A DNA stretch of 59,423 bases. Origin: Rhypophila decipiens (Eukaryota; Ascomycota; Sordariomycetes; Sordariales; Naviculisporaceae). Where the stretch lies: contig MU858266.1 in assembly GCA_033297075.1 (NCBI GenBank), positions 1 to 59,423 on the forward strand, in the 5' to 3' direction. Under the pieces are notes generated by a model. The model saw only the letters and a list, made by a program, of their open reading frames with translations. It made no database searches and was not told the origin of the DNA. Each line of letters starts with the position of its first letter. Position 1 is the first letter of the stretch. Below are positions 4,035-56,314 of this stretch, in pieces. A program made the position numbers and the translations under genes.

Positions 4035-4681
4035 AATGTTGCCAGATTGGATGCTCCTATGGGACCAGCTTTGGCATTTTTTTTGGTGGGAAATATTTTA
4101 CTGTCAGTAGACTACGATTTATCAACTCAGTCTATTCAACATGGCGTCGAGACTCTTCTTGTCCTATTGGCTGGGTAATTCCGACCTCCGAGACATCCTA
4201 TGCAGGGAGAGCCGTCTTTTTCCTTTTATTTCGACGACAGGTCAAAAACTTTACCATGCGTGGAACCTCTACCTTTCTTGATCTTTACTCTTTATTATTA
4301 ATATAGGCCTCCTTCGAGCTCTCCAGAGACAGCCGAAATGTCTGCGCGTGCTCGATCTATACTGTTTTGAAAAGTGCCACTCTTTTGCGCGTCGAAAGGA
4401 ATAGCACCACTGAACTGGCGCCGACTTTCAGAGTACTACCCGAGTAGGCCCTTTACGGCGACTAAGAAGACTGAGACGACAAAGAAAGAGGATGAAAACT
4501 TGATTGAGTTGCGCCATACCTTTCAAGACCTGAGAGTAAATAACCTGCCCGGTCCCCAGGCCATGCAACAAAAGACAGCCAAACAAACAGAAAACTCACC
4601 ATGCTGCAATAACAGATTTGGCCTCAAACGCACCATCTCCTTAGTATCTACCATTACAATGGACATACCACCGAGGGGTCC
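4035..4681. other. Intergenic region
   Basis: No coding frame with support; several AT-rich tracts (about 4070-4320). It includes the 3' UTR of the upstream secreted-protein gene. Confidence 0.45.
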
Positions 4682-5308: not shown

Positions 5309-6288
5309 GGACTGGGACGTAGAGCTTGGGCGTGAGAGAGAGTAGCCGTATCTGGATTCAGAACTAGCAGCCTGTACCCCTTCTAGTCATTTATCGTCAA
5401 TAGAACACCAGTCTCACCTAGCTCACAATAGCCTCTCAAGGTCAAGCTTTGGAACCTGCACCGCTCATCTCAATGCCCGTGTTCTCCGCAAAGTGCAGGC
5501 CCTGGACGATAACCTTTGTTGTTCATCCCTCCTTTGTCAAACGCAATTCGGTATACACTAGCAGGGTGCACCTACTTTGCCTTGACTTCTCCGCAGTCAC
5601 TTCATACCATCAGGATTGTTCCCAGTCGAACCACAACTGCAACTTATCCGACTCCCCAATCAACGGCAGTTCCAGGGCAAACCGATGAAATGGACTAAAT
5701 GTTTGTGATTGGCCACGGTCTCGTCCCTCGAGATCCGGAAGCCGACAACACTATCGTCCGCGACACAGGTGGTCTGATCGAGACCGTGGCTAGCTGAGTG
5801 GACGAAAATGATGCCCGACCCCTGACTTGGTATTGAGAAGGGTCGACGTCGTGACAGCTCAGGTGCATAATAAATAAGCGGTGAACATCCCGCACCCGAG
5901 TCCAGGGGACCAGGTCTAGGTTCAATTAACAGGCCGAAACAGGGCATATCATTGCGGGAAACCCAGCCACTAGGATAACATTCACGATAGTGGAGTCTGA
6001 CATGTCGCACGAAAGTAAACAACCCGCATGAGGGGGGACACAGCGTGGCCAGCTGACAAGTAGGATTCCGAGTATTGGATGTCTTCGGTGAGGATGTCTC
6101 CCGACGGGCAAGTAGAGGCGGTGAATGCCCCGAAAACTGCCGCGGTAGGAGTTCCAGTAATGCTCATAAATACAAACCAGATCCTCCTTCACTTGCATTC
6201 AGATTCATCATCACCGCCTTACCAACCGCAGATCGCCGCACAACCCAACTAAACCCATTCACACCGCACAACTTACGTTACCTCAGCC
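5309..6288. other. Intergenic region upstream of tyrosinase
   Basis: Several overlapping small ORFs on both strands, none with convincing composition or motifs. The last 100 bases before 6289 are C/A-rich, as in fungal 5' leaders, and a TATA-like ATAAATAC lies at about 6166. It should contain the tyrosinase promoter. Confidence 0.45.
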
Positions 6289-10330: not shown

Positions 10331-13300
10331 TCACTCATAGATCTTTTGCCAGCGGGGTAGAAGTTTCTCAAACTCGGAGATCACTTGAATGTAATATCTC
10401 CTTTGAAGCATGACATCCTTCATTGAGTATTCCCTGAGCCCCAGACCAAAGTCACAGTCCAAACAGATCCTGACAATCCTCCCGTAGACCGTTCCCATTT
10501 CGGTCCCGGCGAGATCCCTGACTGCCTGGAAGCCGTCTGCTGGATGAGCACCGTCTTGACTTTGCGTCCCTGCACGCTCGACGAGCGGTTCAATAGACAT
10601 TTCAAACTCCAGCTCCAGCAGCATGATTCCAAGGGCGAACAGGGTCATATTCTTGGCTCGCGGGTCGAGGTTTTGCAGTTTCCCCTTGGCCGCATTGCTG
10701 CCGGACTGAAGATTATGTTGATAGCAAAGGAAAGGAGTTTCAAGCGAGCGCTGCGACGAGGTTGGATCCCAGAATGAGACATTGCCGCTCGAAAACTGGC
10801 CCTCCTCCAGCCACGGCGTGGAGTGGTGGGTTAGCACCATGTCCGCAAGCGCTACAGCGAGCTTCATCTTCTCCACCTTGTTGGCAAAGGGAATACTACC
10901 AACATTTTGGACTCTCCAGGGGCAGGGGAGGCTGTGAAGAGTGTGTATTCGCGTTCCTGATTTGTCCAACCGTCGGAGCCGTAAAGAGAATGTAGCTGGA
11001 TCGACCGCCTCGATAACGGCTCCGGGCATGCCCACGCCACCGGAGTCGAGCGCAGAGCTCACAAATGCGCACAAAGGACCGATACTGGACGTGCTTGGGT
11101 TCGTTGTGGAGGGTTGTTGTTGTTGCTGTGTTGGTTGGAAGCTGGGAGTCTCGTCTTCGAATACGACCCTCCGCTCTTTTGGAGCAGCTGATCCTTCACC
11201 GTGGCGCCCCTGGAGCCGAATAGCGTGACTATTTTCGCGTGGCAAGCTATAGCCATAGCTGTTGGGAGAATATTTCGAGAGCCTTTCTGTGAATTTGCCT
11301 TCTGTATCTCTTACGCAGTCAACTTCCAAACAGATTGGTTCTTCGCACGACTTGGGTTCCGAATCAGTCACCACAAGCTCGAATAATAATCCATCCTCCA
11401 CGGACACACTTTTACTCCGGGTAGATAGTTTTATGTTCGCCGAGTGAGAAGAGTGCCGTTGGCACGACCAAAGAGACTGGCAGGCTGCTTGCAGCTCCTT
11501 CGACGCCATGTTCGCGTTTCTCACTTCGGCGAGCTTGGCCTCGGTGACGGTCACGTCATCCGGCTGAAATATGGTCTTCCCTAGTGTGCTGAGCTTGTTT
11601 CCTGCCAGGACTATGGTGTGCAACTCTAGGTTTCGTCCATGAATACCGGGGATAAGTGATTTTGCAACCCCAATGTTGCCTTCTCGGAATTCCGTGCGCA
11701 GCTTCGTCATTTGGTCTTCATAGTGAGACAGGGTCTTTTGTATATCGCTGGCGCGCGCCATACATGTCAAGGAAATGATATGTTTGTCAGTACATTGAAA
11801 ACCTTGTAGCATCTGCGTGGCCTCTCGGTCTATCGAGAAGACGAAGTTGTGAAGTATGGTCGTATCGTCCTGAAGAAGCGCTGAGGAGAGTAGCAGGTGA
11901 CATTGCGTTTGAAATAGGGTCCTTTGCGTGAGAAGTTGTTCCCTTAGTAAACTAACCGCTCTGGGCCTTCCTGTGGGTGGCTTTTCGACGTGGAGGACTT
12001 GATTGTACGCCGAGAGAATCAATGCAATCCGCACTATAATGGCTGTGCCACCGTGTAGCCGTGCCACATGCTCTGGCTCTGTTAGGTCAAGATCCCCCTA
12101 AAGGGAAGTGCGTATTCCCAGGGCTGACAGTGTCTTCCGACTTAGGGTCTACAGCGGTAGCTTTGTCTAAATAGTCAACTTGACCAGTTCCATGTTTTTG
12201 GACGAAAGATAGGATTGCGGACTTACTGTTGGTGTCTCCATGTCCCAAAAACAGTCTCCTTGCGCATTCTTCAATTTCTCTCGAGACTTCTGTGGTGTAC
12301 TGAATCGTCATAGACTGCATTAAAGGGAGCTTCTCAAAGTCGGACATCTCAATGCCAGAAGGCCCCTGAGCAACGGAAAACCGGAAATACCGTTGCTGCC
12401 GGCTGAGCTCGCGGCCTTGACCACCGTTTTGGAAGGCGATATGTTTGGCGTTTGCGTCAGTGGCGATCTTCGCAAGGGAGGCGAGGACGGCATGAAGCCT
12501 AGTTTTACTGGGATGGAATCCTCGCTGAACCGAGATGGCCGTGCCGAGGCTGACAAGGCATGCGACCTCCCTTCCGGGCCAGAGCGATCGTGCCTCATTC
12601 ATAGCTTCCTCGACGGGATTGTTTGCCCTGACGGCACCGTCGACAAAGGTAAAATCGCCCTTTTGAAAGGTGATCGGTTCGAAGAAGAGCGGCGCCGCGG
12701 TCGCGGCCCTAGCTGCCTCCCACAAAGAACAGTCATACTTGACTTGTCCTGGTGTCGTCGACTTGTAGGATCGCAGAAGCCTAACGTTCGACGAGTGCGC
12801 ATCTACTGCATAGACAAATCTTGAGGGGTTGATTAGTCTCAGCGGGACACTCCCATATAGTGTTTTTGGGTACCGCCCTGGGCCAGCGAGAAGCTTACAC
12901 CTTGCAATGGGGATCTTCGGATTCCACTAGCCGGGTCTCGGGGTCGAGACCCTTGTCAGATAGCAGGGAGCAGACGGCATCCTGAAGGTTTCGTCCTTGG
13001 AACCAAGTTCGATTCATCTCGGAGCCGAGGACCTTGAGCAGCGACATGTCGGACCACCATTTCTTCTTGAATATTTTTGGCGACAGTACTTTGTAGGCGT
13101 CAATGGAATCTTCTATGGACATGCGGAGCCTCCCAAGCAGGATGGCGATGAGTCTGCTTGGTCCCGTCAGAACGTACCTCTGCCAGGTGTGAGAACCGAG
13201 AATGAAAGAATACACTTACCCTCCCGTAGAAGTGCCGGCTATGAGATCGAAATACTCATACGGATGCACTTGCTGCCCAGTCTGGGACTCGATCGACTGG

Positions 13301-13401
13301 AATATGCTCTGGAGTAGTAGGAGCGATGTGAAGCCCTTCACTCCGCCACCATCCAGAGAGAGAATCCTCAAAGGCGGAGAGTTCAAAGTGTCCCCTGCCA
13401 T
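10331..13401 (-). CDS. Patatin-like phospholipase fused to a DUF7580-like (kinase-fold) region
   Basis: Four exons on the minus strand (13401-13220, 13153-12899, 12819-12227, 12078-10331) give about 925 residues; all phases agree. The patatin domain covers residues about 1-345: oxyanion loop DGGGVKG (17-23), nucleophile elbow GTSTGG (56-61) and catalytic Asp in VDGA (about 206). The Ser-Asp dyad is intact, so an active lipid acyl hydrolase is expected. A 148-base intron (donor GTAAGT at 12226, branch CTAAC) joins it to a C-terminal region with a helical start (TAIIVRIALILSAYNQ), then a DUF7580-like part with PWLEEG, VSFWDP and LFALGIMLLELEF. Such regions resemble protein kinases without catalytic motifs. 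A second in-frame acceptor 6 bases on gives 923 residues. Patatin is a known fungal NLR effector. Two separate genes are possible but would waste a perfect splice. Confidence 0.85.
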
Positions 13402-13781
13402 TTTATGCGGCGCGGGGATGATCAAATGATCGGGTTTGTTTGCCCTAAGGTAAGAAATATCGGGTCAAAAGGCTGATGATTCTTGCAAAGGAGCGGTTGA
13501 ATTTACATGACGCGCCGGAGGTACCAAGAAGCGGCCGCCGGCAGGTCGCGGGATGAAGCGTGAACCAGCCGTGGGATGATAATGTGCGGGGTAGACCACA
13601 ATCTCGGAGTGGATCGGAGGGTTGCCTGAAAAACGAGTGGGAGCATGGAAAGTTCGGGAAAATAGCATGAGCCTCCTTGCTGCCTCGGGATCCTGGCAGA
13701 CAATAGTTGTCGATCGTTAACGTCTTCTTTCAAACGCGTCCCACAGCTCCCCCGGCAATTGGTGTCAAAGATTACAGAGAG
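13402..13781. promoter_or_regulatory. Bidirectional promoter between the patatin and GTPase genes
   Basis: Only 380 bases separate the two divergent start codons (minus ATG at 13401, plus ATG at 13782). Both promoters must lie here or overlap, which predicts co-expression. No TATA box or known operator is evident; the region has no coding support. Confidence 0.6.
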
Positions 13782-16504
13782 ATGTCAGCTTTTGGTGTTG
13801 GTGGAGGCGCGAATGCTGGCACCGGAGACGGTGTTGCGGGGGACCTCTTCAGCTGTTGTGTGGAAGTACTCTGGCGGTTGATCCAATCCATGGCCTCACG
13901 GGTCCACTCCGGGAACAAAACCATACCAGCTCGTGATGGCACCGACAATACTCTACACCGTCATGATGATAACGAAATATCAATACGGAGATTAGAGCGG
14001 CTGAGGGGACAGTTCGGAAAGTTTTACTTCTGTGCCCAAGGGTTCCTAGACCACGACGGTGGACTTGACCGCATCCTCAGTATATCGTCTCCCTTGAAAT
14101 GGCGTGTTCTCTCGCTACTTGTCCACATCAGCAGGGTAGCTATGGCTCTTGACAAGCTAGGTTTGTTCTCTGTTCCCTCAAAAATGCCGTCTTCCCTGAA
14201 GGTCATCGGCTAAAGAACAGATAAAGATAACCATTCTCGGCCAGGGGGGGACAGCATTGCCCGAGACAGTAGAGTAATGAGGGAGCTAGAATCAGTCCAC
14301 GGGAGGTGTGCTTCACTGCTACTTGATCACGCTGAGACGAGTGGCTTCTCGGAACCAACAGTATTGGAGCAGGATCCCGGAGATTGGTTCGAGCTGGAGG
14401 AGGAATTCGATATCTATGTTCAGTGTTTGGTGGACCTCACGCCTTGTCTGGAGCATTCTGCCCCAGATCCGCAATTACTGGAGCCGTTTGTCGCTCCGCA
14501 TCAATTCTCGAGCAGTATTGGTCCTTTAGTTCAGTTGTGGTGCCGGCGCATCTTTGACATGTTCCCCGAGGTTGATATAACACTAGCAGAGCGTTTGGGA
14601 ATTTTGAATTGGAACCGTTTTGAGGAGCTTCTCAAATGGGCAGCTGAGCCGAGTAGGGAAAACTTGCCGCAGGATACCGAAAGCCATTTAACGAGTACAG
14701 TAACCAGCACTAGAGTTGGTCATACACTTTCAACCGGTAATGACAACACCACAGACACAGGACTGACCGAGCCGTCCGTTGCTCAGAGCGGGCTTCAGTT
14801 TGGGCTTGCAAAGGGCACAACCCAATATGAAGATCTGGAGACCATCTTCACGGCCAGCACTCGGCTTGCTACCCTTTTCAGGGTTCCTGATATACCGCCT
14901 GTACGTCATGATGGGAGTAGGATATGCACCATCTGCAGGAAAAAGCTGGAGTCCGCTGTCGACACACGCACAGCTTGGAAGTACGTGAAACCTCTGCCAA
15001 CGCTTCATCCCAAGACGATGTTGAACTCTAACCTGGTACATAAAGCCAGACGACATGTTTACCAGGACCTTGCACCTTATACGTGCACCATGGTTAGCTG
15101 TCCTGCCAGCGGGAGAGAGATGTTCAGCAATCGACGGGTATGGGTAGAGCACGAGTTTCAACAGCACCTAGCCGAACGAGTTTGGTCGTGTGGGTCTTGT
15201 TCGGCGAGGCTATCAACAAAAGAAGCATTTCTACAACACATTGAGAGACACCATCCAGAGTACACAATCCTCGAGAGCCAGATTGCCGCCAAAACATCCG
15301 AGAGCATGGGATGGCGGATGAAGCCCAACGTGTTTTGTCCGCTGTGTAAAATGAAACTCGACCCTTTGCTACATGTATACGCCAAGCATGTAGGAAGACA
15401 CCTGGAACAGATCGCTCTCATCGCCCTTCGCATTCACAATTCCGATGAGGCGCTGGAAGACGATGACGAATTTGAGGTATCGCAAAGCTCTGATAGTGGA
15501 ATAGATGAGGGCATAACTGCTGATGCATACTACGGTGAAGAGTCCATGGCGTCCAGGACACAGGAGATCCCACAGCCGACACCTACCCAGTCAACGAGTT
15601 GGCGGGACGTGGCGCGGCCTGCGCCTGACCAACACCCGGCTGTAAGTAGTACGAGGAACTTTGAGCACACCTCGCCCGGGGCTAGAAATCGGGATCGTGG
15701 GGTCCCGAAGCAGCGCAAGCTTGCTCTGGTGGGCTCCAGGTCCGTCGGTAAGTGTGAACTAGTATGGCTACTGAAGATAGTTGGTATGATCACTGACAGT
15801 CGATGGTAACATGGGTTCAGGCAAGTCTGACCTTGTAGTACGATTTGTGGATAATCAGTTCTTAGAATCATACTACCCTACGATTGAGAACACGTTCTCC
15901 AAGCAGATGAGAGTAGGCAAATCCACGTACGATGTAGAAATTGTCGATACCGCTGGCCAAGTAAGTCCAAACCTATTTGATTCTGAACTAAGGCGTCTCC
16001 ATAATATAGGATGAGTATTCTATTTTGAACTCTAAACATTATATTGGTATTCATGGCTGTATAATTGTTTACTCGGTCAAGTCTGCCTCGAGTTTCGAGA
16101 TGGCGCAGGTGATTTGCGATAAAATTCGCAACCACCTTGTACGTACAACCTTGCTACTTGTAACTTCCCCGTTCACACCCGATTTAAGCTCCGACCGATG
16201 TGTATTGAACGACCATGAAGGAGTAGCACGCTAACATCGCGTAATTACTCAACAGGGAACTGATAGTGTACCGACCGTCATTGTCGGTCATCACTCCGAG
16301 ACTCGTCCCGAAGAAAGACAGGTCACGTGGGAGGATGGACATAACCTATCTCTGAGGCTGAACTGTGGGTGGACCGAGGCGAGCAGCAGGAATGGCGATA
16401 ACGTGAGCAAGGCGTTCGAACTCCTCATACTTGAGATCGAAAAGCTTCAAAGTAGAGCCGAACTAGTTAGCCAGTCCGGCGGGGACAATTGCGCGGTCAT
16501 GTAA
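13782..16504 (+). CDS. acuF-like C2H2 zinc-finger protein fused to a Rheb-like small GTPase
   Basis: Exons 13782-14160, 14245-15747, 15821-15960, 16010-16138 and 16256-16504 give 799 residues; phases all agree. The N-terminal 600 residues match the fungal 'oxidoreductase acuF-like C2H2' type: helical part, then Cys/His groups CTICRKK (about 352), CTMVSC, CGSCSARL and CPLCKMKL...HVGRH (about 490). From about residue 620 the chain becomes a Ras-superfamily GTPase nearest Rheb: P-loop GSRSVGKS (split by an intron), switch I YYPTIENTF, switch II VDTAGQDEYSI and VYSVKSASSFE. The protein ends CAVM, a CaaX box as in Rheb, so prenylation is expected. The NKxD guanine motif is replaced by GHHSE and the SAK motif by TEASSR, so nucleotide specificity may be lost. 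Divergent to the patatin gene. Confidence 0.87.
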
Positions 16505-17207: not shown

Positions 17208-19451
17208 TCAGTCCTTCTTCTCCTTCACCTTCTTCTCCTCACTTTTGAGGTGGCCATTCAACCACTGCCAAATGGTCTTGGAGACCCCGATAGTGAAATC
17301 AAAGTTGCCACCGTGTTTGAAATGCCCCAGGTACTGGGATTCGGGAGTCATTTCACCCGGGTCACTTCCATATGTCTTGCAATTTCCGTAGAAGCAAAAC
17401 TTGTACTCGCCGAAGTTCCAAAACCGGTCCCAAAGAGCCTTGATCTTGCCTGGCGGCACATACCCCGGCGTAGTATACTTGTCTTGTCTGCGTGTCAACT
17501 GCGCGCCGGTCGCCGTCTCGTCGTCGGCGTCGTTATTGTAAGCAGCCATCCGCGGATCCCAGTAGTTAATACGACGCAACACCACCGCCATATTAGCCAG
17601 CACCTTGCGGTTCCTTCTCGCCGTTGTTTTAAGTTCCTCCACTTCCATGTCTCTGCTCTCTTGAACCCACCTGTGGAGGCTGGCCCTGTCCGTCACGCCC
17701 TCGGGCATGTCCTCATCCTGAAAGGCCTCATCCTGAAAGGCCTCGTCGGGGATGGCGTCAATATGCTCCGGAGAGTAGTCGAGGACGTAATCGTCCACAA
17801 AGCTTTTTACCGACCGTGTAGGGAGGACGGCAAGGTCCTCCAAGCTCAGATATGACTGCACAAGCTGCAACTCTTTGGTCTCCCTCTCGTCCATGTCCGC
17901 ATCCGCATAGGGGGGCCATCTATCGTTCGCGGGCAGCTTCCTGAGACGCACCAACCACCCTCTTACCCACCAGAGGACACGCTCATCAGTCAGCTTATCA
18001 CGAGGCACAGGTCCCACGCCAGGCCAGTAAACCGTCACGTCGTCGTCGCCTTCGTCACCCCCAAGCAATGCGAGATCACCGGCGCCAACATCACGACGCC
18101 CGATCCTGTACCACTCATCCAGAGGACCAACACACGCAGTATAATCCACAAAGTACCCCGGCCGACTCTCAAACCCGCTGAAACTCACACGAGCACACTT
18201 GGGCAGGTAATCCAGGCTCGAGCCAAAAGGAATAAAGATGCCATCTCCGTCATCACTCACCCGAATCTGATCCGCAAAGTTGGACACCCCAGTCCCGCGG
18301 CAGACAGAATAATCCACCTCGGGGCCCATCCCAGCAACCCAGATATGATTGAGCCTAGCACAGGCAGGCACGTACTCGGGCCTCTTCCCGTAGTGAATGA
18401 CTTTATTCTCCGGACCACCAGCCTTGGACAAAAGACCATAGCAATTCGTAAAGTTAGCGACATACTTGCGCCGAGGCGGTCTCGGTTGCCAAGGTCCCGA
18501 GCGTCGTCCAATATGGACATTCGCACACTTTGGCAGTCGCAAATCATCTTTGGCCACCCAGGCGGGCAGAACAGCGTCACCGTTGAGATCATAAACCTCA
18601 GCACGATCCGAGTATATCATCTCGTTGTCGTTTTGTTCCTTGAAATACCGCTCGCACCGGCTCCAGTCGATAATGCGCTGTGGCTCGTGGAACACGCCGA
18701 GAAGGTCCCATTTCTTGGGTTTGGTGAAAGTCACGCAGGCACACTTGGGAAGAGTGGCATCGCGGAGATCGTTGGGGCAACGGATGGGGCAACGGATATA
18801 GTCGTCGTTCTCGGAATCGGAATCATTGCCCTCCTCTGGTACCACCCGGTCCCGACGGGCCAGCCCAAGAAGAGAAATGTCCTTTTCGTCGGCAGCGTCA
18901 GCCTCGTCAAAGGCCAAAAGGTCAGTCAACAAATCATCCAGCTCCTCCTGGTACTGAAGATCCCGTCTCTGGACATGTGCCTTTTCTCCATGTCCAAACC
19001 CTTTAAACCAATCCACAACCTTCTCAACCCAAGAATTCAGCTTCTTCGGCCTCCAATCCCCAACAGGCCCCTTACTCTCCTCATCCCAAGCCCCATAATA
19101 CTTCAAGATATTCTCCAACTTGCCCCGCTGACGTACAAGGGTATCAGACCCATACCCCTTGAAGTCATCATCACTATTGACCTTCCAAACAGGAAATGGT
19201 CGCGACCGCAGCGGGCCGTACTCGACCGACCAGGACGATCCAATCGGCTGCAAGGCGTGCCTGCCATCCTTGATTGAGCCGATAACCTTGGTTGCAACAG
19301 ACGCATCGTCGACTTGGGCAGGATCAGGTGTTGACTTGGTTGGCACGATGATGGGGATTCCACCTGTGGCGTCTAGAGGCGCGGCGATGACCAGAGGGGC
19401 GGCTACGAAGGCCAACGCCGCCGCCGAGGCGACGATACGGAGGAGGTGCAT
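17208..19451 (-). CDS. Secreted protein with four repeated Cys modules
   Basis: Intronless ORF of 747 residues from the ATG at 19451, which opens a signal peptide (MHLLRIVASAAALAFVAAP, cleavage near AAPLDA). The frame is open upstream to 19739, but that part lacks a signal-peptide start. The family is unknown to me. Residues about 235-440 hold four imperfect copies of a module of the form [LV]-P-x-C-A-x-[VL]...[DN]-[YWF]-[ST]-x-C: LPKCACVTF, LPKCANVHI, VPACARLNH and LPKCARVSF, each closed by an aromatic-Ser/Thr-x-Cys such as DWSRC, NFTNC, DYSVC or DYTAC. The paired Cys suggest one disulphide per module. The C-terminal third is acidic with helices, then a Cys/Trp-rich tail ending in Lys/Glu repeats. 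It could be an effector or cell-wall protein. Confidence 0.8.
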   Translation of the reverse strand: MHLLRIVASAAALAFVAAPLVIAAPLDATGGIPIIVPTKSTPDPAQVDDASVATKVIGSIKDGRHALQPIGSSWSVEYGPLRSRPFPVWKVNSDDDFKGYGSDTLVRQRGKLENILKYYGAWDEESKGPVGDWRPKKLNSWVEKVVDWFKGFGHGEKAHVQRRDLQYQEELDDLLTDLLAFDEADAADEKDISLLGLARRDRVVPEEGNDSDSENDDYIRCPIRCPNDLRDATLPKCACVTFTKPKKWDLLGVFHEPQRIIDWSRCERYFKEQNDNEMIYSDRAEVYDLNGDAVLPAWVAKDDLRLPKCANVHIGRRSGPWQPRPPRRKYVANFTNCYGLLSKAGGPENKVIHYGKRPEYVPACARLNHIWVAGMGPEVDYSVCRGTGVSNFADQIRVSDDGDGIFIPFGSSLDYLPKCARVSFSGFESRPGYFVDYTACVGPLDEWYRIGRRDVGAGDLALLGGDEGDDDVTVYWPGVGPVPRDKLTDERVLWWVRGWLVRLRKLPANDRWPPYADADMDERETKELQLVQSYLSLEDLAVLPTRSVKSFVDDYVLDYSPEHIDAIPDEAFQDEAFQDEDMPEGVTDRASLHRWVQESRDMEVEELKTTARRNRKVLANMAVVLRRINYWDPRMAAYNNDADDETATGAQLTRRQDKYTTPGYVPPGKIKALWDRFWNFGEYKFCFYGNCKTYGSDPGEMTPESQYLGHFKHGGNFDFTIGVSKTIWQWLNGHLKSEEKKVKEKKD

Positions 19452-20211
19452 GGAAGCTGCTCCTGGCTTCAGGGTGTGATGGGATCGAGGTAGACAGCAA
19501 GCAGGTTTGGGAAGGAAGAGTATGATGGGGGGAATCAGCAAGAAGAGTGATAACGACGGGATCCCAGGAGGGAAACGAGCCCGGGTATCGAACGAGAACT
19601 GGCAAAAGGAAGAAGAGAAAGAAACCCAGGACGAATCTGGGGACTGTCTGGGTTTTATAACATCACCAAAGACTTCCATTGCCCAGGAAGCTTCCAGAAA
19701 GAGCTGGCTAGTCACCGTGCTGAACCGCAAGATTTTCATGGCAACCGGTTAGCGCAAGCCATAACCCAATACGCCTTCGTTGAATGCCGGTACAGCCAAC
19801 GGGGAGAGAGATAATTCTGGTCTCTTGTCAGAACAAACGATGGGTTCGCCACTTAAGGTTGCCGGGCTGGCGCGATATCGAGTTCTCTTGCTCCAACATC
19901 ATGCACCTACCAGCTCGTGACTTTGAGGCGGCATATCCACTGTTTGGCAACTCAAGTGGATGGGCAACCACATGTAGCAATGCCAGTGACATGGACGTCA
20001 CAGTCAGATCGGAACATGGAGTGGCCCAACCAAGAAAAGGACAAAGGGATGAGCTGAGCGAACGAGTACTAAATGTAAGTGATAACGTGAATCTTTATAA
20101 ATAATGACGATGTCTACACTGTAAGGGCGTACCGTCAGTCCCTGCTCGTTGTAACAATACAAAGAAGCGAAAGTCCCCTCGGAACCGTGGTGCCCGGATG
20201 CTGTGGCGCCT
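19452..20211. other. Intergenic region
   Basis: Promoter of the minus-strand secreted protein (just right of 19451) and 3' flank of the aminopeptidase gene. Polypurine stretches at 19590-19640 lie in its presumed leader. No gene seen. Confidence 0.5.
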
Positions 20212-27627: not shown

Positions 27628-30600
27628 TTACCTGAAACCACACCCACCATTTCGCCCAGAAAGTAACGCTTTACCGCCCCGGGACCAAGCCCATCTTTCT
27701 TGGTTGGCCTCGACATGCCGCGACATTCTCGAGTCACAGACATAATACATGCATCCAGCCATGGTATCCACCTTGACGGGCAGATTTACAGCTCTGCTCT
27801 TCCCGGGATCTTTCGCAACAATTTGCCTATCCAGTATCCCACGTTGTTTTGAGATCCCGGAACCGTGTTGAGTCCGTCTTCGAACGCCTCTCAAGTCAAT
27901 CCAAAGTCTTGACGCAGTGTCCTTGAACGACCAGCCGCAAAAAACCATCAAGCCGCCGGCAAGAACAAGAACCATATACGCCAGAACGACAACCGCCATC
28001 CAGGTACACGCCTCATGAATCTTAAATGTGACGGTGTTGTAGAATGGTATGTTGGACAGCAGGATCGGCGTGAACTTGGCTAGCAGCGCTGCTAGTGCTA
28101 TGTTGAATGAGTGGAAATCTCGAGTGTGCAAAACAGATCTGTAGAGGCCGACGAAGACGTCTGATGGTGGCGATAGGTAGATGGACTGTTCGGGTGTGAG
28201 ACCTGTTTCTGCATGACGTGCACCAAAGTCAGTGATTAACTGGAACATCCGGAGCCCGGAATTCAAGGAGTAAGCTTGAGCAAAGCTAGAGAGAACTCAC
28301 GAGAAAAGTAGTATCCCCAAAACAGACTAATCACCGTGCCAAAGACGGTAAACAGGATACGCACGCCAAAGGACTGGCTGTCCATGAAGCGCTCGAACGC
28401 CGTGTCCGGGGCGATGGTGTTTTCGTACACGAGGATCAGAGCCAACAGTCCCACCGTGAAAAGGAGAGCTAGAAATCGCAAGGACAGTTCATTAGGCATG
28501 CTCGGAAACCAAAACCTTCGTCCTCCCCCGGTCTTGCTAGTCTCGCCAATCGTGGGCTTTCGTTGTGGTGGGTTTCTTGTGGTTAGACGGATTGAGGTCT
28601 TGTCCTCCAATGCGGGACGTATGATCTCGAGGCCGTACATCCATGTCATCTGCCTCTGCTCTCCTTTCCCGGCCGGAGCTGAAGCAGGGACCCAACTCAG
28701 CCTAAACCGCATACCATCCAAAGCCATCTTCATCTCCCTCTTCACATCCGTATCCTTTTCACAATCGACACCCCTCAACACCTTTGCTAACTCGCCACAG
28801 CTAGCCAATAACCCGTTCATATGCGCTATACTCCACGGCTCTCCTTCTCCTCGTGCAGGTCCAATCCCAGACCGCCACCTCCCCAACATGAGCCCAAGCA
28901 ACAAAACCAAAAACCCCATAACACACAAAATCACTTCCGCAAACCGAATCAAACCGCCCGATTTCCTCAGCCCAAAGGCACATACCCTTATAAAGGCCCT
29001 CGAATATCTGTTATTAAAATCATCCTCGTCACACCCCGAGTCCCTCGTCGATTCCAGCCGAATGACCTCGCTCGAGATGGGGACCAGTATAAGCGACAAT
29101 ACACCCAGTAACATATTTACCATTGGCAACGGGTCCCTGTAGCGCTTTAAAAACCGGAATGAAGTAATTTGAGAAGAAACTAAGCTGGGATTGCGCGAGA
29201 GGAGGAGGGTATCGCTTAGCTGCCCTCCTGCGCCAGATGTATGATGCCTTGTTAAACCGCGAAAGGCGAGGAGACAGTTGAGGCTAGAGGAAAAGACTTG
29301 GATCGGGATTGAGAGGAGGGTTGTGAGGAGTACTGGGATCACCGAGGCGAGGAGGTAGGATGCTTCGGAGCGGAGATTTGAGAAGGATGATTGGACTTCT
29401 GGTGAGACGGGGCCCGGAGGGTGCGGTTCTGGACTCTGGGCAGGGCGGTTTCGACGGGTGGTGGTTGGAGTGGTTGGAGTGACGGATGAGGTTGGGGTCA
29501 TGGCCAGCGGGAGGGAAGTGAGTAAAGATGGTTGCTGGGAGTCATTGGGGTTACTGCTGTTGTATCCTATGCTGTGGCTGCCTAGGTTTTGTGATGGTTG
29601 GGAAGATATTGTTACTGGCAAGGAGTTGATGACTTCGCCTGATGGATGGGAAGAAGGACGAGGAGATGGCACGACGATCATGGTAGCAGTGTTCAAGCTG
29701 CTCGTCAGGGTTTCGTCTTGCATATCACTTGTTGGGCCTGCTAAATCGGCTGCATTTTCCGTGTCAGTCTTTGGCAACGCTCCGGCGGCAAGCATTTGGG
29801 ACGCTGTCTTTGGTTTCGAAAGGGACTCTGATGGCGTCAATGTCTGCGACGAGGGCCTGAACGTTGAAGATATGAAAGTCGTTGGCTTGAGAGACGACTG
29901 GCCAATAGGAACAAGCACACCGATCGGGATCAATGATGTTGTGAAACTGGATTCTGGTCTCATCATGTCGGATCTGTGAGGTGTTGAGATTTCTGGCTCG
30001 GCTGTCATGGATCTGCTTTCAGAGTCTGTTTCTGGTCCCACCAGCTGGGCTCTTGTGGATGACGTTGAAGCTGCAATGTCGGGCAGCTTTGATTCCGGAG
30101 AGGTGGTGGAAGTGACCAAGCCAATCAGTGCTGAAGAATCTGTCATGAAAGGCTCTTGTGTTGGTGTTTCACTTGCAGGGCTTGACTTTATGGTTGTAAA
30201 CCTTGTGGTGCTCGTAATCGTATCGCAGCTAGTACATGCAGGCTGATGTTGGATGCTGGATCCCTGTTTAGCAGTACTAGTCGGTATCGCAAGACTCATT
30301 CCCACAACATCAGAGGACGTGGTTGAAAACCCGGTCTCAGTGGTAACAGCACTCGTCAAGGTTGGCCGAGAGAGCGGAAGCTGCCACCACAGAATTGACA
30401 TAGTTGTTGACACTGGCAACGAAGTACACTCCTGCATGGACCAAAAGTGCTTATTGCTCTTCAAGTAACAAGGCAGGGTTGTGGGCGGCAATAAGCCGAA
30501 ACCCCATGGTGGCTTGGAGTAAAAGTTGACGGGAAAAGTGGCCGTCTCGGTCGGCTTGACCTTATTCCCAAACACGTCCATGACTTCGGTTCCTGCCGTC

Positions 30601-31874
30601 CGGACCACCATGGGGAGCATGATATCTCCGCCAGCAGCCTTGCTTGGGAGCGGCCATATCTGGCTAGACGCCTGTGGTGGCGGCGTCGAGTATGAGTAGT
30701 ACCTGTATTCGGTTTCCTCGCCTGTGACCGCGGCAGGTGTATAGATGAGGCCCCATTTGTAGTAGTTAACCGATTCGATGGCGATCATGACGGATTTGCA
30801 CCCTTCGTCGTCTGTATCCCACCAATCGTGGAGGTAGTGCAGTTCATTTTCGATCTCCTCGGATCCCCATTTCTCCATGGAAGCTCGACAGGGGCACCAA
30901 GAAGGGTCGTCAGTGACAAAGGTCTGGATGTATTCTTGGAGATTCCACAGCAAATACTGGGAAGCGCCATCATTAACTGTGCTGTTGCTCGAGCAGAGGT
31001 CGTATCCCGGCTTGTCCCGGGGCAGCTGGTCACATGGCACCGGTTTCAATCCAGTGGTCGCAACACTCCATCTTGGGGGATACCATCCGCAGTAGCTCAC
31101 AGGCGCAGCCGGACTGGGGTAGACAGTGTCTGGAGGCCGTGCATCAGGCTCGGGCTCAGGTGCCCTCATGAGTGCACGGCGAGCTGGCGCTGCTCTGGTG
31201 ATGGTGACGAAGCTCACAGGAGTATGTGGCAGTGAAATTTGCCATGTTGGTGTTGAAGTTGGCGTCTTCCCAATGCTATTTAGCTCAATTGATTCAGACG
31301 TGTCCTGTTGTTTGGCCCGCCCCGCCCCATCTTGCTTAATGACAGAATATCGCAGCGGCGGGAGATCGTGAACCTGGTATTCGAGAAAGGCAAAGGTGCC
31401 GGCAATGAATACAAACAAAAAAACAAGAAAGGGGGTCCTCAGTGGGACTGGCTTGTAGTCTGGTATCTGAAGGTCTTTAGGGGGATACTGGGATGGCTGA
31501 TGAAAAGGGATATCCCCCTTTATCGCTTCCTGGTCTCCATCCTCAAAGCTTGACGTGTTTGTCGAAACTGGCACCAGTTGCTCGGTGCTATGCGCCCAAC
31601 CTCTAACAGCTGGATGTGAAGAGAATCGCACGAGCTCGATGTCACCATCTTGGATTGAGGAGCTCCATGATTGTCGATCAGCAACTGGTCCTGGCTTTTG
31701 GGGAGTCTCAGGGGCCTGGTAGCATGTTTCGTGTAATGGCTTTTGTGGTTGTGCTAGCTCGATCTTTACAAGAATTGAGGTCCCTCTTTTGGGTGTATTG
31801 CCTTCATGTTGGTCGGTTCGTTGCTTTTCCTCTGGTTGTGTTGACTTTGGAACTTTTCCAGACATGTCGTTCAT
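27628..31874 (-). CDS. DUF3433 multi-pass membrane protein with Ser/Thr-rich ectodomain
   Basis: Two exons (31874-28301, 28208-27628) give 1384 residues. The start is the ATG at 31874 (MNDMSGKVPKS). The intron (donor GTGAGT, branch CTGAC, acceptor ATGCAG) restores the frame between YYFS and QTGLTPEQSIYLSPP. Order: basic cytosolic N-terminus, a first TM (FLVFLFVFIAGTFAFL, about 150-170), a long extracellular Ser/Thr-rich part (about 480-860) that should be heavily O-glycosylated, then a first DUF3433-type repeat (LLASVIPVLLTTLLSIP), further TMs, FLALLFTVGLLALILVY, and a second repeat (LLAKFTPILLSNIPFY). This two-repeat layout is the usual fungal DUF3433 form. Its function is unknown; a cell-surface sensor is a guess. 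Confidence 0.88.
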
Positions 31875-31931
31875 CTTTAAAGGAAACAACACCTCAGCTT
31901 GACAAGAAAAGATGCCATCACTATAATTACT

Positions 31932-31990
31932 GGACTAGAAATCCAGATTCACATCTTACAAGACGACTCCCATCTGTTAAGTAGCAGTCA
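31932..31990 (+). repeat. Diverged direct repeat, copy 1
   Basis: The stretch CTAGAAATCCAGATTCACAT then CTTACAAGACGACTCCCATC, up to TTAAGTAGCAGTC, recurs at 34093-34152 in the same orientation. About three quarters of positions match. Most differences are C or G here against T or A there, several in CpA context. Confidence 0.6.
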
Positions 31991-47958: not shown

Positions 47959-50900
47959 ATGACGACGCAGCTGCCATCTGTTTCTTTCGGGGCCCTGAAC
48001 CAAGGCATGCAGGTGGGGCAGAACTCCGGGCTGATCAGCGCAGAGTTCAACCTCCCGCCGGGTAAGGTTGGCGCCTTCCAGCAAGGTCGTGCCAGGCTAA
48101 CGGTATCTCAGAACGACCAGAAACACCGCCGCAGCCATTCGCGACCATTCCCTTCTCGCGCGATCCCGATTTCATTGACCGTGGAGACATTCTTGACCAA
48201 ATCAACCAGCGATGTTCCGAGCCCGGCGCTCGAGTCGCCCTCGTCGGCCTGGGCGGTCTTGGCAAATCGCAGTTGGCCATCGAATATGCCTATCGACTTG
48301 CCGAACGACCCGACATATGGGTGTTCTGGGTCCATGCCGGCACGCAGGCACGTGTGGAAGAGGGCTTTCGGGCAATCGCCGATGCCGTCAAGCTGCCCGG
48401 CCGGAACCAGCCCAAGGCTGATATACCACAGCTCGTGTACGATTGGCTGTCGAACGAACGGATCGGCAGATGGCTTATCGTCCTCGATAGCGCCGACGAC
48501 CGTGACGTATTCTACGGCCCAACTGGCGACGACGCGGGCAATGGGCGGCCATTTGCGACGTACCTCCCACAGAGCCGAAATGGATCGATTCTCATCACAT
48601 CACGCAATAACGACATGGCTTTCAGGTTGACTGGACGCAGACAGACTATAATTGAAGTCGGACCAATGGTACAGACAGACGCCCTCACGCTCCTAGAGAG
48701 GAAGCTGGGATCTCTCTCGGATCCAGATGTGGCGGCCGATCTCATACAGGCTCTCGATCTTGTTCCGCTGGCTATCAGCCAGGCTGCTGCATACATACAG
48801 GCGAGGGTGCCGCGGAGCTCGCCTAGGAAATACCTGACTGAGTTCCGGGAGAGTGAGCATGAAAAGAGCAGGCTTCCACAGTACGATGGTGGGGACCTAC
48901 GACGGGATGGAGGCGCGTCAAACGCGATTTTCACGACATGGCAGATATCCTTTGACCACATCCGCTCCAGGTGGACTTCTGCAGCGGATCTCCTATCCCT
49001 TATGAGCTTTTTTGATCGACAAGGCATCCCTAGGTGGGTTCTAAAACCTTCCAGAACCGTCAAAGACGCGATGTGGGCAGGACATCAAGTTGAGGCCGGA
49101 GGTGGGAAGACGGGCGACGGTAGCAGTGCTACGGATAGCGATAGAAATGATCACGCTGGCGACGACTTAAACAGCGCGTTCGAAGACCACATGGCGATGC
49201 TAAGGGACTATTATCTTATCGTCGCGGACAAGGTAGGGGAGGAGTTTAGGATGCACGAGCTTGTACAACTCTCGATAAGGAGGTGGCTAGAAGCGTCCGG
49301 GCAGCAGGAGACGTTCAAGAAGCAGTATATTAAGCGAATGGCAGCATCATTCCCAACAGGACAGTATGAGAATTGGGCGACGTGTCGGAGTCTCTTTGCA
49401 CATGTTCAAGCCGCTCTTGGTTACCAACCTAGCGAGGATATGGCTGAAAAGTGGGCGACTCTTTTGCATAACGGGGGATGGTATGCTTGGTCGCAGGGGA
49501 GATACGAGATTGCAAAACAGATGCTAGGCAGGTCGAGGAAGGTTCGTGAGAAGATGCTAGGAAAAGAGGATGTGGCAACTCTAAATAGCATATCAATGTT
49601 TGCTATGGTCCTTTCAGACCAAGGCCGGTGGGAGGATGCTGAGAAGCTGGAGGTGCAGGTGATGGAGACTCGTAAGACCAAGCTCGGGGACGACCACCTA
49701 GATACGCTGACGAGCATGGCCAATCTGGCGTCAACATATAGAAATCAGGGCCGATGGGAGGAGGCGGAGAAGTTGGAGGTGCAGGTGATGGAGAGTCGTA
49801 AGACTAAGCTCGGGGCTGATCACCCAAACACATTGACAAGCATGGCAAACCTGGCATCAACGTTTTGGAACCGAGGCCGGTGGAACGAGGCCGAATCACT
49901 GTTTATGCAGGTAATGGAGATGAGTTTGAAGGTGCTAGGCTTAGAACACCCTGATATGCTGTTGAGCATGGCCAACCTGACGTCGACGTATCGGAATCAA
50001 GGCCGATGGAAGGAAGCCGAGTCGCTGGAGGTACAAGTAATACAGATGAGGAAGAGGGTGCTGGGGCCGGAGCATCCCGACACGCTGACCAGCATGGCCA
50101 ACCTGGCGTCAACATACAGGAACCAAGGCCGATGGAAGGAGGCCGAGTCGCTAGATGTTCAGGTGATGGAGACTCGTAAGACCAAGCTTGGAGACCACCA
50201 CCCTGATACGCTGACTAGCATGGCCAACCTGGCGTCGACATTTTGGAATCAGGGCCGATGGGAGGAGGCTGAGAAGCTGCAGGTGGAGGTGATGGAGACA
50301 AGCAAGATTAAGCTCGGGGCTGACCATCCTGACACGCTAACGAGTATGGGTAACCTGGCGTTAACATTTTCGAATCAAGGCCGATGGAATGAGGTCGAGT
50401 CACTAGAGATACAGGTGGTGGATATGAGGAAGAGGGTGCTAGGCCCGGAGCATCCCGACACGTTGACAAGCATGGGCAATCTGGCGTCAACGTACCAGAA
50501 TGAAGGCCGATGGGAGGAGGCTGAAATGCTGGAGGTGGAAGTAATGGAAGCGAGGATGAAGGTGCTCGGTTCGGAGCATCCCTCGACGCTAACAAGCATG
50601 GCTAACTTGGCATCAACGTATGGTGATCAAGGCCGATGGAACACGGCTGAGTTGTTGCATGTGCAGGTAATGGAGACGATGAAGAGGGTATTAGGATCGA
50701 CCCATCCCGACACGCTGACGAGCATGGCCAACCTGGCGTCGACGTATCGGAATCAGGGCCGATGGAAGGAGGCCGAGTCGCTAGATATTCGGGTGATGGA
50801 GACTCGCAATACTAAGCTCGGGCCCGATCACCCATCTACGTTAATAAGTATGGGTAACCTGGCGTCGACATATAGATACCAGGACCGATGGGAGGAGGCC

Positions 50901-51164
50901 GAGAAGCTGGAGGTGTATGTGATGGAGATAAGCAAGATTAAGCTCGGGGCCGACCACCCTAATACGCTGACGAGTATGGCTAACCTGGCATCAACATATA
51001 AAAACCAGGGCCGATGGGAGGAGGCGGAGAATTTGGAGGTGCAGGTGATGGAGAGTCGTAAGACCAAGCTCGGGGCGGATCACCCATCTACATTAATAAG
51101 TATGGGTAACCTGGCGTCGACATTTTGGAATCAGGGCCGATGGGAGGAGGCCGAGAAGCTGTAG
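47959..51164 (+). CDS. NB-ARC-TPR NLR with N-terminal PP/RHIM-like motif, cut short by a stop codon
   Basis: Exons 47959-48061 and 48112-51164 (intron 50 bases, branch CTAAC) give 1051 residues. Exon 1 plus the junction encodes a short N-terminal segment SFGALNQGMQVGQNSGL with an MQVG core at residues 17-20, like amyloid signalling motifs of the PP/RHIM type. NB-ARC follows: P-loop GLGGLGKSQ, Walker B RWLIVLDSADD, GSILITSRN and LVPLAISQAA. A winged-helix part leads to TPRs of 42 residues each (pattern LGxxHPDTLTSMANLASTY then NQGRWEEAE). Thirteen repeats run from 49557, and the last ends at a TAG at 51162 where other repeats have GAG. Two more repeats lie beyond. The protein may still work, since repeat number varies in such NLRs. 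Confidence 0.9.
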
Positions 51165-54223: not shown

Positions 54224-56133
54224 CTAAACCAGCCTGATCTCCATCTCCTCCGCTTGTTGAAAACCCTGGTCAAAATCCCTTCCAAACAAGCGACCAACCC
54301 CTACACGCTCATATCCACGGACCACTTTTCCTACACTCCTGACAATCAGAACATTATACACATGATGCGTTGCCGAAAGATAGCCGAGCTGAATCCCACC
54401 TTTGATGCCCTGAACAGTTGAAACGTGCAGGGCCTCTAGACCGTCATCATCTTCTTCAGGGATTGCCTGAAAGTCGGCGTGCTCCAACGATGCCCAACCA
54501 GCAATGTACTTTTTGTTCAGCGGTGAGGCCACGGTCCGCCAGTTGTCAACTCCAAAAATGGGGCTGCGGGACGCGAGCGAGATGGCAAGCTCCTTGTCGT
54601 CCTGAGAGCAAAAAACACCGCCAATGACGATCGGCTGGAGTTTCGCCCGGAGGCACAGGATGGGAAAGCGAGACCTGGGGTTTTCTGCAGCACTTTCGTT
54701 ATGACCTTTGTCTTGGGGAATTAGCTCCGGTGGTCCGTTCACGAAGGTCTGCTGGTCAACATCTTCAAATGTTTTTGTGCCCTCGTTGTAGCGAGGGTTG
54801 AGAACGTTGACGATGCGGCAATCGTCTGCGATCCGATCCCTGAATCTTTTCCAGTCTTCGTCCCTCACGTTGTCTGCCCACTTGACCTGCGTGCAGATGG
54901 ATGCCCACGACCACGTGGGTATGTGGTCAAGCCTTTCATGAATCCCCCCTTTGACGATCTCCCAAAGCAGCCCCCTTGTCAGCTCGCGACGCCAAATGCC
55001 GGCAAGATAGGTTCTTGCTGCTTCCGAGCTGGCCAAATCCTGACTGCTCCTTGAAGTCCTTGCAACTTCAGCTTCTCTGGCTTGGAATGCACGGCCAAAC
55101 TCGTTCGCGATACCACTCATGGCCACCAAGCGGTCTTTCTCGACATTCGTGAGACTCAAGGCTGAATAAGTCTCAACCATGCCTTCCCATGACCTATGCA
55201 GCTGAGCATACGTGCCCTTCGTGATATTGGCAGTCATTATGAGGTATCTCACAGCAAAATGCGCAAAGACGAATCCTTCAGACCAATTATGCACGTATTC
55301 CTCGAGGTGGTTCCGTGGACCCTTTTCCTGGCATTGCAGAAACAGGCCAGAGGGTGTGAAACATGCGATGCGCCGACTGAGAATCCACTCCTGAAAGATC
55401 CATCCTCTTGTCATCATCTCGGTGTTGCATACCTGCTGACGAAAGGTTTCGTCGAAGTTGAGGTTCGCCTGATACAAGTAGAAAAATCCATCCTGTTCTT
55501 GTGTCTTATTGTGATATGGAAGTCGGATAAGTTGAATACCGTGTGAAGGGTGATCCATATTGTTCAAGTTAAAAAGACCAATGTCGGTTCCGAGGGCTGC
55601 GGCAGGACAGGCAATGGTAAATGTGGAGTTTTGGTAGTAGTCTGCCATCTTCAATGCTTCGGTGACGAACTCCCCATCCTTCCCTTGCACAATGCAGAGC
55701 GAATCGATCCACACATAACGGATGTCTTGACTGGCCGCAACGGCAAAGGCGTCGGTAAAGATCCGGGGCAGATTTTCAAAAGCTTTGCCCCGCAATCTAT
55801 CGGAGAGGTTGGCACTTGTCGTCATTGTTTTCTGCGTCTCATCAGTCCATCGATGGCTCAAAGTGATGTAGGCGTCTCGAAGGTTGGGTTGCGTGTCGTA
55901 CAAACAAAAGCTAAGGCCGTCGGGAGATTTGTCAACCCGGACACATCGTGTAGGCAGTGGCGAGTTTCTGGGGTCTATCTGGCCACAGCCGGACAAAGTG
56001 ACTGAGCACTTGTCATGTTTGGCAGTACAGAGCCTTAGCCATGTGTCCACGGTGGTAGTGCACTTTTCCAAAGAAAGACAACCCGCTCCGGTGTATCTTC
56101 CTATAACATCACCAGATCGGGCAGCGCCACTGT
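54224..56133 (-). CDS. HET-domain protein, 5' end missing or unresolved
   Basis: The last exon runs from 56133 to the stop at 54224 and codes for about 636 residues. HET signature: YITLSHRWTDE (block 1), YVWIDSLCIVQGK (block 2), and RGWIFQEWILSRR (block 3), followed by a C-terminal region with IPTWSWASI, the usual HET companion. HET proteins trigger cell death in heterokaryon incompatibility. In the exon, no ATG precedes WLRLCTAKH. The exon opens at a good acceptor (branch GCTAACC, CTCACAG at 56134), so an upstream exon existed, but none is visible in the AT-rich 56.2-56.5 kb. The usual 150-200 N-terminal residues are missing. Either exon 1 is short and unrecognised, or repeat insertion has cut the gene. 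Confidence 0.85.
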
Positions 56134-56314
56134 CTGTGAGTTAACGGTTAGCTACAAGCTCTGAAGCTGAACCAGCACATGGACGTTAAGGTATGTAATC
56201 TAGTTTCGAGGGAAATTTTCCTCCAATTTTGGCCGCCTCCAAGGCGTCTTTTTAACAACATTAAACCCACCCCCACCCGGTCACATACCCCAGTTGCCTT
56301 TTACCTCACTACAC

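Follow-up and report, generated by a model that had tools for sequence, protein, structure and literature searches.

A divergent patatin-DUF7580 and C2H2-Rheb gene pair in Rhypophila decipiens, a candidate head-to-head sensor and executioner unit

Several described two-gene systems of recognition and cell death can be compared with a divergent gene pair of the fungus Rhypophila decipiens, in which the gene of a patatin-DUF7580 lipase (gene A) lies opposite a gene that fuses a C2H2 zinc-finger module to a Rheb-like GTPase (gene B). The pair is found on contig MU858266.1 (assembly GCA_033297075.1), positions 1 to 59,423 of which were analysed as a whole and are called the window below. An earlier sequence-only reading of this DNA had likened the pair to plp-1/sec-9, where PLP-1 is a single NOD-like receptor (NLR) with NB-ARC and TPR domains and SEC-9 is a working SNARE (PMC12881547, PMC10197012). 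The likeness stands in that a patatin lipase, as death effector, is found with the gene of a conserved cellular protein; it is a loose one, as PLP-1 is an NLR whereas the window lipase has no nucleotide-binding domain, and SEC-9 is a working protein whereas the window partner is a fused, decoy-like and apparently disabled copy. The nwd2/het-S cluster of Podospora anserina, composed of an NLR gene and the gene of a HeLo pore-former, likewise links a sensor-like gene to a membrane executioner, and among the relatives of the window pair are a HeLo-DUF7580 protein and a partner of the C2H2-NACHT-WD40 type. However, the putative window sensor has a Rheb copy and no nucleotide-binding domain, and the putative executioner joins a kinase-like domain to a lipase.

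Immune gene pairs that stand head to head and include an integrated decoy are characteristic of plants. The plant NLR pairs resemble the window pair in having divergent genes, one of which carries an integrated copy of a host protein that is exchangeable between pairs, whereas neither window protein is an NLR. A survey of NLRs in Sordariales describes head-to-head NLR pairs as rare (13 among 225 two-NLR clusters), judges these NLRs not to have converged on the plant-style head-to-head decoy organisation and reports zinc fingers and kinases among the non-canonical NLR domains, and its main text holds no word beginning with DUF (PMC12258605). The comparison with MLKL/RIPK3 runs through the wider DUF7580 family, which includes a HeLo domain together with a kinase-like domain and a divergent kinase gene at four of five loci of a HeLo/kinase type, whereas the window pair has a patatin as its membrane domain and a C2H2-Rheb fusion as the partner; some fungal HeLo-like domains are described as joined to kinase or pseudokinase domains in a manner reminiscent of MLKL (PMC12881547). 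Fungal gasdermin and protease two-gene clusters also encode a cell-death executioner beside its activator (PMC10197012), although the proteins are unrelated and activation there is by proteolysis. In the literature searched, 5.39 million papers that leave out most subscription titles and all preprints, we found by title and abstract no system that combines both architectures of the window, as the sequence-only reading had supposed, and no mention of DUF7580.

The features of the pair, in window coordinates, are as follows.

10331..13401, minus strand: gene A, patatin-DUF7580 lipase, 956 residues, with exons 13401-13220, 13153-12899, 12819-12153 and 12097-10331.
12600..13362, minus strand: patatin domain of gene A, split by introns, with the motifs DGGGVKG, GTSTGG and VDGA intact (Pfam and motif reading).
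10358..10882, minus strand: DUF7580 domain of gene A, the C-terminal portion of the family model, kinase-like in profile comparison.
13402..13781, no strand: intergenic stretch of 380 bp between the two start codons, a candidate shared promoter.
13782..16504, plus strand: gene B, C2H2-Rheb fusion, 784 residues, with exons 13782-14160, 14221-14980, 15050-15747, 15821-15960, 16010-16138 and 16256-16504.
14829..15491, plus strand: C2H2 zinc-finger module of gene B, common to the other pairs of the genome and spanning the intron 14981-15049.
15717..16504, plus strand: Rheb-like GTPase domain of gene B, on four exons, with P-loop GSRSVGKS, PTIENTF, DTAGQ, guanine motif HHSE and CaaX CAVM.

Our preferred reading, to which we give a probability of about 0.58, is that the two genes would form a head-to-head sensor and executioner unit, of the kind known from fungal innate immunity or allorecognition, with an integrated Rheb decoy.

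The window gene models were built by hand and are backed by public models and homologues. The start codons at 13401 (gene A, minus strand) and 13782 (gene B, plus strand) lie 380 bases apart on opposite strands, as first noticed in the sequence-only reading, and its description of both genes as multi-domain fusions with intact phases agrees with a read-through of four and six exons. The public protein P0070 is identical to the gene A model, and P0001 is an exact suffix of the gene B model, whose additional N-terminus is backed by the Pestalotiopsis fici orthologue, aligning over 99% of the query. The single exon 15050-15747 contains both the zinc fingers and the first part of the GTPase, so the C2H2-Rheb fusion is not a gene-prediction artefact.

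Patatin-like phospholipases are recognised by a GxSxG nucleophile, a DG(A/G) catalytic Asp and a glycine-rich oxyanion motif, all of which are present in gene A as GTSTGG, VDGA and DGGGVKG. The Pfam matches, obtained with a 925-residue variant of the third junction, are Patatin (E 2.7e-24) and DUF7580 (E 5.8e-18). Gene B matches the Ras-family domain (E 3.9e-39) and ends in CAVM, and the best solved relative of its P. fici orthologue is Rheb (E 1.1e-45). The zinc-finger half contains four Cys-pair zinc-finger-like units, one of which is detected by Pfam here, weakly (E 0.014); the public record P0001 lists PF26082. Neither protein shows an NB-ARC or NACHT match at E values up to 1, placing both outside the NLRs.

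Each product was searched against 5.8 billion proteins, and in each search the roughly 8,000 candidates with the most words in common were scored. Four genomes have the patatin-DUF7580 architecture (R. decipiens, Cercophora sp. LCS_1, Neopestalotiopsis sp. 37M and P. fici); they span Sordariales and Amphisphaeriales, in two subclasses of Sordariomycetes, and all four also have the C2H2-Rheb architecture. The pair carries neighbouring locus tags in Cercophora (OQA88_13452 and OQA88_13453) and in P. fici (PFICI_13933 and PFICI_13932), and in Neopestalotiopsis the contig of each counterpart has the same length, 569,654 bases; outside R. decipiens, linkage is read from such tags and contig sizes, in which orientation is not visible, and for the patatin/Rheb type. 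The earlier expectation that unlinked genes in most relatives would speak against a module has therefore turned out the opposite way, and of the adjacency and divergence it proposed to score across genomes, adjacency follows from the tags in Cercophora and P. fici, while divergence is read in R. decipiens. The motifs DGGGVKG/RG, GTSTGG and VDGA are intact in three of the four patatin-DUF7580 proteins, the fourth being annotated without its N-terminus. Identity to R. decipiens is 54% (Cercophora), 45% (Neopestalotiopsis) and 40% (P. fici) for gene B, and 43%, 36% and 36%, in the same order, for residues 300-925 of gene A. The GTPase side alone was found in the metagenomic fragment P0003 and in Paramyrothecium foliicola (P0006).

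The 45.7-Mb assembly of R. decipiens, in which the window is contig C222, contains further pairs. Loci were gathered by DUF7580 and gene B genome searches, by our own profiles and from fetched regions, with a cut-off of E up to 0.01 for the C2H2 module, giving 19 loci of the C2H2 module and 14 window-type DUF7580 loci. Of the latter, 13 face a C2H2 locus on the opposite strand in divergent orientation, with 1.9-4.2 kb between the matched domains (contigs C222, C347, C208, C67, C163, C363, C247, C329, C72, C176, C4, C39 and C276). The Pfam list alone gives 12 of 18 DUF7580 loci paired with C2H2; the C276 pair was added when our own profile found a DUF7580 gene beside the C2H2 locus there, and five loci of the HeLo/kinase type (C139, C117, C6, C129 and C154) stand outside the count of 13 in 14. 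With 19 C2H2 loci, the random expectation is about 0.0009 per DUF7580 locus, and 200,000 draws that placed each C2H2 locus randomly within its own contig gave a mean of 0.7 pairs and a maximum of 6. The divergent DUF7580/C2H2 arrangement exceeds chance, although the 13 pairs are not 13 independent events because they are relatives. Gene models of the 12 other pairs are open frames.

The two halves of the pairs have diverged together: the distances among the DUF7580 members correlate with those among their C2H2 partners over the 13 pairs (Mantel r 0.48, p 0.0002, 20,000 permutations), and also without the window pair (r 0.45, p 0.002). The locus thus shows the marks of a head-to-head pair, namely, divergent adjacency, conserved linkage and coupled evolution, with divergence seen in the R. 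decipiens genome. As a control, none of 151 HET matches listed lies within 5 kb of a C2H2 locus, the nearest being at 6.9 kb; 150 of 266 candidates were scored, and the genome has more HET matches than those listed. One HET match lies on C72, about 3.1 kb from the DUF7580 match and on the same strand. Patatin was also considered as the linking element and rejected, since among 19 contigs with a patatin match only that of the window has one within 10 kb of a DUF7580 locus, and no patatin match lies near any of the 12 other pairs. The linkage runs through DUF7580 and C2H2.

The C2H2 module shares a frame or exon with different second domains, being Rheb in the window, the beginning of a PP1 phosphatase (C276), a protein kinase (C363), NB-ARC (C347) and ankyrin repeats (C247). 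Frames following on the same strand encode NACHT and then WD40 at C39, and NACHT at C4, and presumably belong to the same gene as the C2H2 module. For the C72 partner, a protease-like match falls short of the curated cut-off, and the C67 partner has a Clr5 match at the frame end, whereas the scanned frames of C208, C329, C176 and C163 showed no second domain, with a WW domain in a further frame at C176. In other organisms, precomputed domain lists give C2H2 relatives with PF02179, PF00627, PF00249 and PF22893, which we take to be BAG, UBA, Myb and a ubiquitin-like domain.

The PP1 copy at C276 is close to PP1 (E 6.7e-78 over 141 residues), but it has GNYVDYG in place of the GDYVDRG of the solved PP1 chain. 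The aspartate of this motif is a metal ligand in PP1 and the arginine binds phosphate, and the copy is therefore probably catalytically dead while retaining much of the rest. The C363 kinase has DFA instead of DFG. Copies of cellular hubs that are fused to one module and have altered chemistry would be the signature expected of integrated decoys, and judged from sequence alone, the Rheb without its guanine-motif lysine and the PP1 copy with GNYVDYG both carry such signs.

Further observations on these partners concern single loci. The C276 fusion (L035:2171-4791, minus strand) continues after its PP1-like part into a long Ser-Gln-rich repeat tail and faces a DUF7580 gene starting at 5862, and this pair looks like a second decoy pair. 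At C39 (L031:4554-9900), a DUF7580 gene starting at 4554 on the minus strand faces the C2H2, NACHT and WD40 frames on the plus strand; this partner has the same kind of receptor core as NWD2/HET-E, with the C2H2 module placed in front. Proteins of Fusarium graminearum and of metagenomes (P0135, P0137, P0139, P0143, P0153 and P0164-P0166) combine the C2H2 module with PF02179, PF00627 or PF00249.

By their relationship to Rheb and their C-terminal CaaX, the fusions belong to the Rheb family. The effector loop PTIE(N/T)T(F/Y) is retained in all five fusions in which it was compared, and the CaaX in all four rows with a complete C-terminus. In the four fusions whose guanine motif can be read, it is HHSE, NHSD, TQSD and NESE; none has a complete NKxD and the lysine is lost in every case. 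For R. decipiens, this bears out the degraded motif (HHSE in place of NKxD) that the sequence-only reading had noticed, and its proposal of a membrane-anchored GTPase with a disabled look fits the retained CaaX and the lost lysine. Among the 59 remaining Rheb rows from the gene B protein search (P0007-P0065), NK(S/C/T)D occurs in 54 and QKSD in one, with 4 unparsed, so that the lysine is kept in 55 of 59, and the ordinary Rheb of the R. decipiens genome (L037) retains NKSD. The P-loop has DK for GK, losing the glycine, in Cercophora and P. foliicola, whereas R. decipiens, P. fici and Neopestalotiopsis keep it.

A maximum-likelihood tree was built from 44 rows, namely, those 39 of the rows P0007-P0063 (57 in all) that passed a motif cut, the genome's own Rheb and four fusions. 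In it, the fusions form one clade (support 96/90) among Rheb of Sordariomycete type, divided into (Rhypophila, Cercophora) and (Pestalotiopsis, Neopestalotiopsis); four of the six fusion rows were complete enough to be included, P0003 and P0006 being left out. Their end branches measure 0.16-0.55, against a median of 0.059 over all tree rows. From this clade, its order and its branch lengths, the fusion looks to have had a single origin, vertical inheritance and fast evolution. Rheb acts on TOR. The fused Rheb appears to retain the look and address of Rheb while having lost part of its nucleotide chemistry, and because the NKxD is incomplete, the GTPase of gene B is filed as a probable Rheb-derived pseudo-GTPase and not as a working Rheb.

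Many public fungal proteins (P0009-P0057) carry Rheb together with either seryl-tRNA synthetase or a Wings-apart-like C-terminus; these are probably merged models of neighbouring genes, and ordinary Rheb would therefore have conserved neighbours. An Exophiala bonariae protein (P0066) combines a Ras-type GTPase with ankyrin repeats and a nucleoside phosphorylase domain, a domain which also occurs in fungal NLRs.

The nature of DUF7580 is suggested by the five loci of the other type. At C117, the protein carries a HeLo domain (E 1.9e-44) ahead of DUF7580 and matches solved HET-S/HET-s chains (best E 0.00067), and at C139 a HeLo match falls just under the cut-off. On the DUF7580 stretch itself, kinase models give a match for C117 (E 0.00072) and a weak one for C139 (E 0.034), and the Kdo/WaaP kinase model matches C6; searching the sequences of solved structures with a DUF7580 profile yielded a single match (E 0.14). 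In four of the five (C139, C129, C154 and C6; C117 lies outside the scan), a gene with a protein-kinase match is divergent to the DUF7580 gene. From the HeLo domain at C117, the kinase-model matches and the divergent kinase genes, DUF7580 proteins are plausibly MLKL-like executioners, of which gene A would be a lipase-armed version. These HeLo/kinase-like DUF7580 genes with divergent kinase-match genes also make up a second pair type (L024:1824-5089, L029:2575-5624, L033:2681-8716 and L028:2956-9884).

In the unit that we propose, gene B would be the sensor, its zinc-finger half serving as the family-typical coupling module and its Rheb domain as the integrated decoy, a copy of the TOR-pathway GTPase, anchored in the membrane, that would no longer need normal nucleotide binding and would act as bait for whatever attacks or mimics Rheb. 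Gene A would be the executioner, in which DUF7580 may act as a kinase-like regulatory domain restraining an N-terminal membrane-damaging domain; other family members have in its place a short helical domain that may be HeLo-like, and in gene A a patatin lipase is added. When the bait is disturbed, gene B would free gene A, the lipase would digest membrane lipids, and the cell or fusion compartment would die, with the common upstream region holding both genes in balance. The direction of signalling, the trigger, the decoy role and the cell death are what we infer from the architecture.

Several results weigh against the proposed unit. The recognition module of the sequence-only reading stands as a conserved linked unit in four of four lipase genomes, but P. 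foliicola has the GTPase fusion with no patatin-DUF7580 protein detected in the protein search, and its DUF7580 protein P0103 has no patatin and lies on a separate contig from the fusion. Pairing outside R. decipiens is shown for the patatin/Rheb type. A wider search with one query alignment, in which the C2H2 part was joined to the DUF7580 part, returned 116 proteins, among which Fusarium euwallaceae is the only genome with tagged members of both families, and these (BHE90_001477 and BHE90_013834) are not adjacent, giving none in one testable case; because the C2H2 and DUF7580 lists hardly share genomes, this neither supports nor refutes a general pairing. Within R. decipiens, six of the 19 C2H2 loci (C245, C1, C6, C301, C116 and C90) have no nearby DUF7580 match, and the sole unpaired DUF7580 locus of the window's type, C323, has no C2H2 match in the 10 kb fetched. 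On the side of the proteins, the P-loop GSRSVGKS of R. decipiens is intact with the exon start at 15821, two ordinary Rheb rows are likewise long-branched (0.82 and 0.40), and a pseudo-GTPase can equally be a regulator rather than a bait. Gene A shows no HeLo match in the Pfam scan and so no MLKL-type N-terminal HeLo or 4HB domain, and the best HeLo match among five scanned N-termini of the window-type family is at E 0.035. The window-type DUF7580 profile aligns to a kinase-containing profile with an hhalign probability of 98.6; this supports a kinase-like DUF7580 without proving it, as the kinase-containing profile also includes DUF7580 relatives and is not independent. Structure predictions of both proteins were unusable: their alignments had 9 and 11 rows, and the mean predicted local distance difference test score (pLDDT) was 41 and 40.

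At C323 (L032:2469-6762), the upstream frames look degraded and include an aspartyl protease match and a short stretch resembling gag.

The alternative that survives best, unlikely as we consider it, is an ordinary signalling pair, where a Rheb-like membrane-anchored regulator would tune the lipase within lipid or TOR metabolism; such a pair would have no part in immunity, and its divergence would reflect co-regulation. The intact P-loop and lipase motifs of R. decipiens speak for it, and conserved linkage fits co-regulation. However, normal switching is spoken against by the lysine lost in all four readable fusions and the P-loop glycine lost in Cercophora and Paramyrothecium, the parallel pairs carry unrelated C-terminal domains, some of them typical of fungal immune receptors (NB-ARC and NACHT-WD40), and HeLo occurs in a related DUF7580 protein.

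We hold it slightly less probable again that the pair is a toxin-antidote element, with gene A as the toxin and gene B as its neutraliser, maintained as a unit by a selfish drive, for example the killing of spores or post-segregational killing. Tight head-to-head linkage, the few species with matches and the fast divergence of the fused Rheb would suit such an element, whereas the varied and partly disabled-looking copies of host signalling proteins and the receptor domains among the partners suit sensing over neutralising, and the fusion tree separates two Sordariales from two Amphisphaeriales, as vertical descent predicts. That unrelated genes were left adjacent by slow rearrangement is very improbable given that 13 of 14 DUF7580 loci face a C2H2 locus against about 0.001 expected per locus and that the two families diverge together.

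Elsewhere in the window, an NB-ARC-TPR receptor-like gene (48066-51161, plus strand) and a HET-domain gene (54227-56140, minus strand, with the HET match at 55388-55870) lie on the same contig, together about 31-40 kb from the pair. Two long open frames on the minus strand, 28266-31934 (1223 residues) and 17211-19748 (846 residues), have no Pfam match at E 0.001.

Extending the sensor and executioner reading from this pair to the whole family is more tentative, and we put it at somewhat under an even chance. Filamentous ascomycetes would then possess a large class of non-NLR head-to-head receptors, in which a C2H2 sensor carries interchangeable and in many cases disabled copies of host signalling hubs (Rheb, PP1 and kinases, elsewhere BAG or UBA) or entire NLR cores and lies opposite an MLKL-like DUF7580 executioner whose death domain may be swapped for a lipase. 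The hubs concerned are TOR control, through Rheb, and PP1 dephosphorylation, and if the reading is true, the disabled-looking Rheb and PP1 copies would indicate host hubs attacked by fungal enemies or rivals. It would also provide a function for DUF7580, a testable guardee for such pairs and a closer tie of fungal cell death to MLKL necroptosis, and it would mean that fungi did converge on head-to-head decoy pairs, using different proteins.

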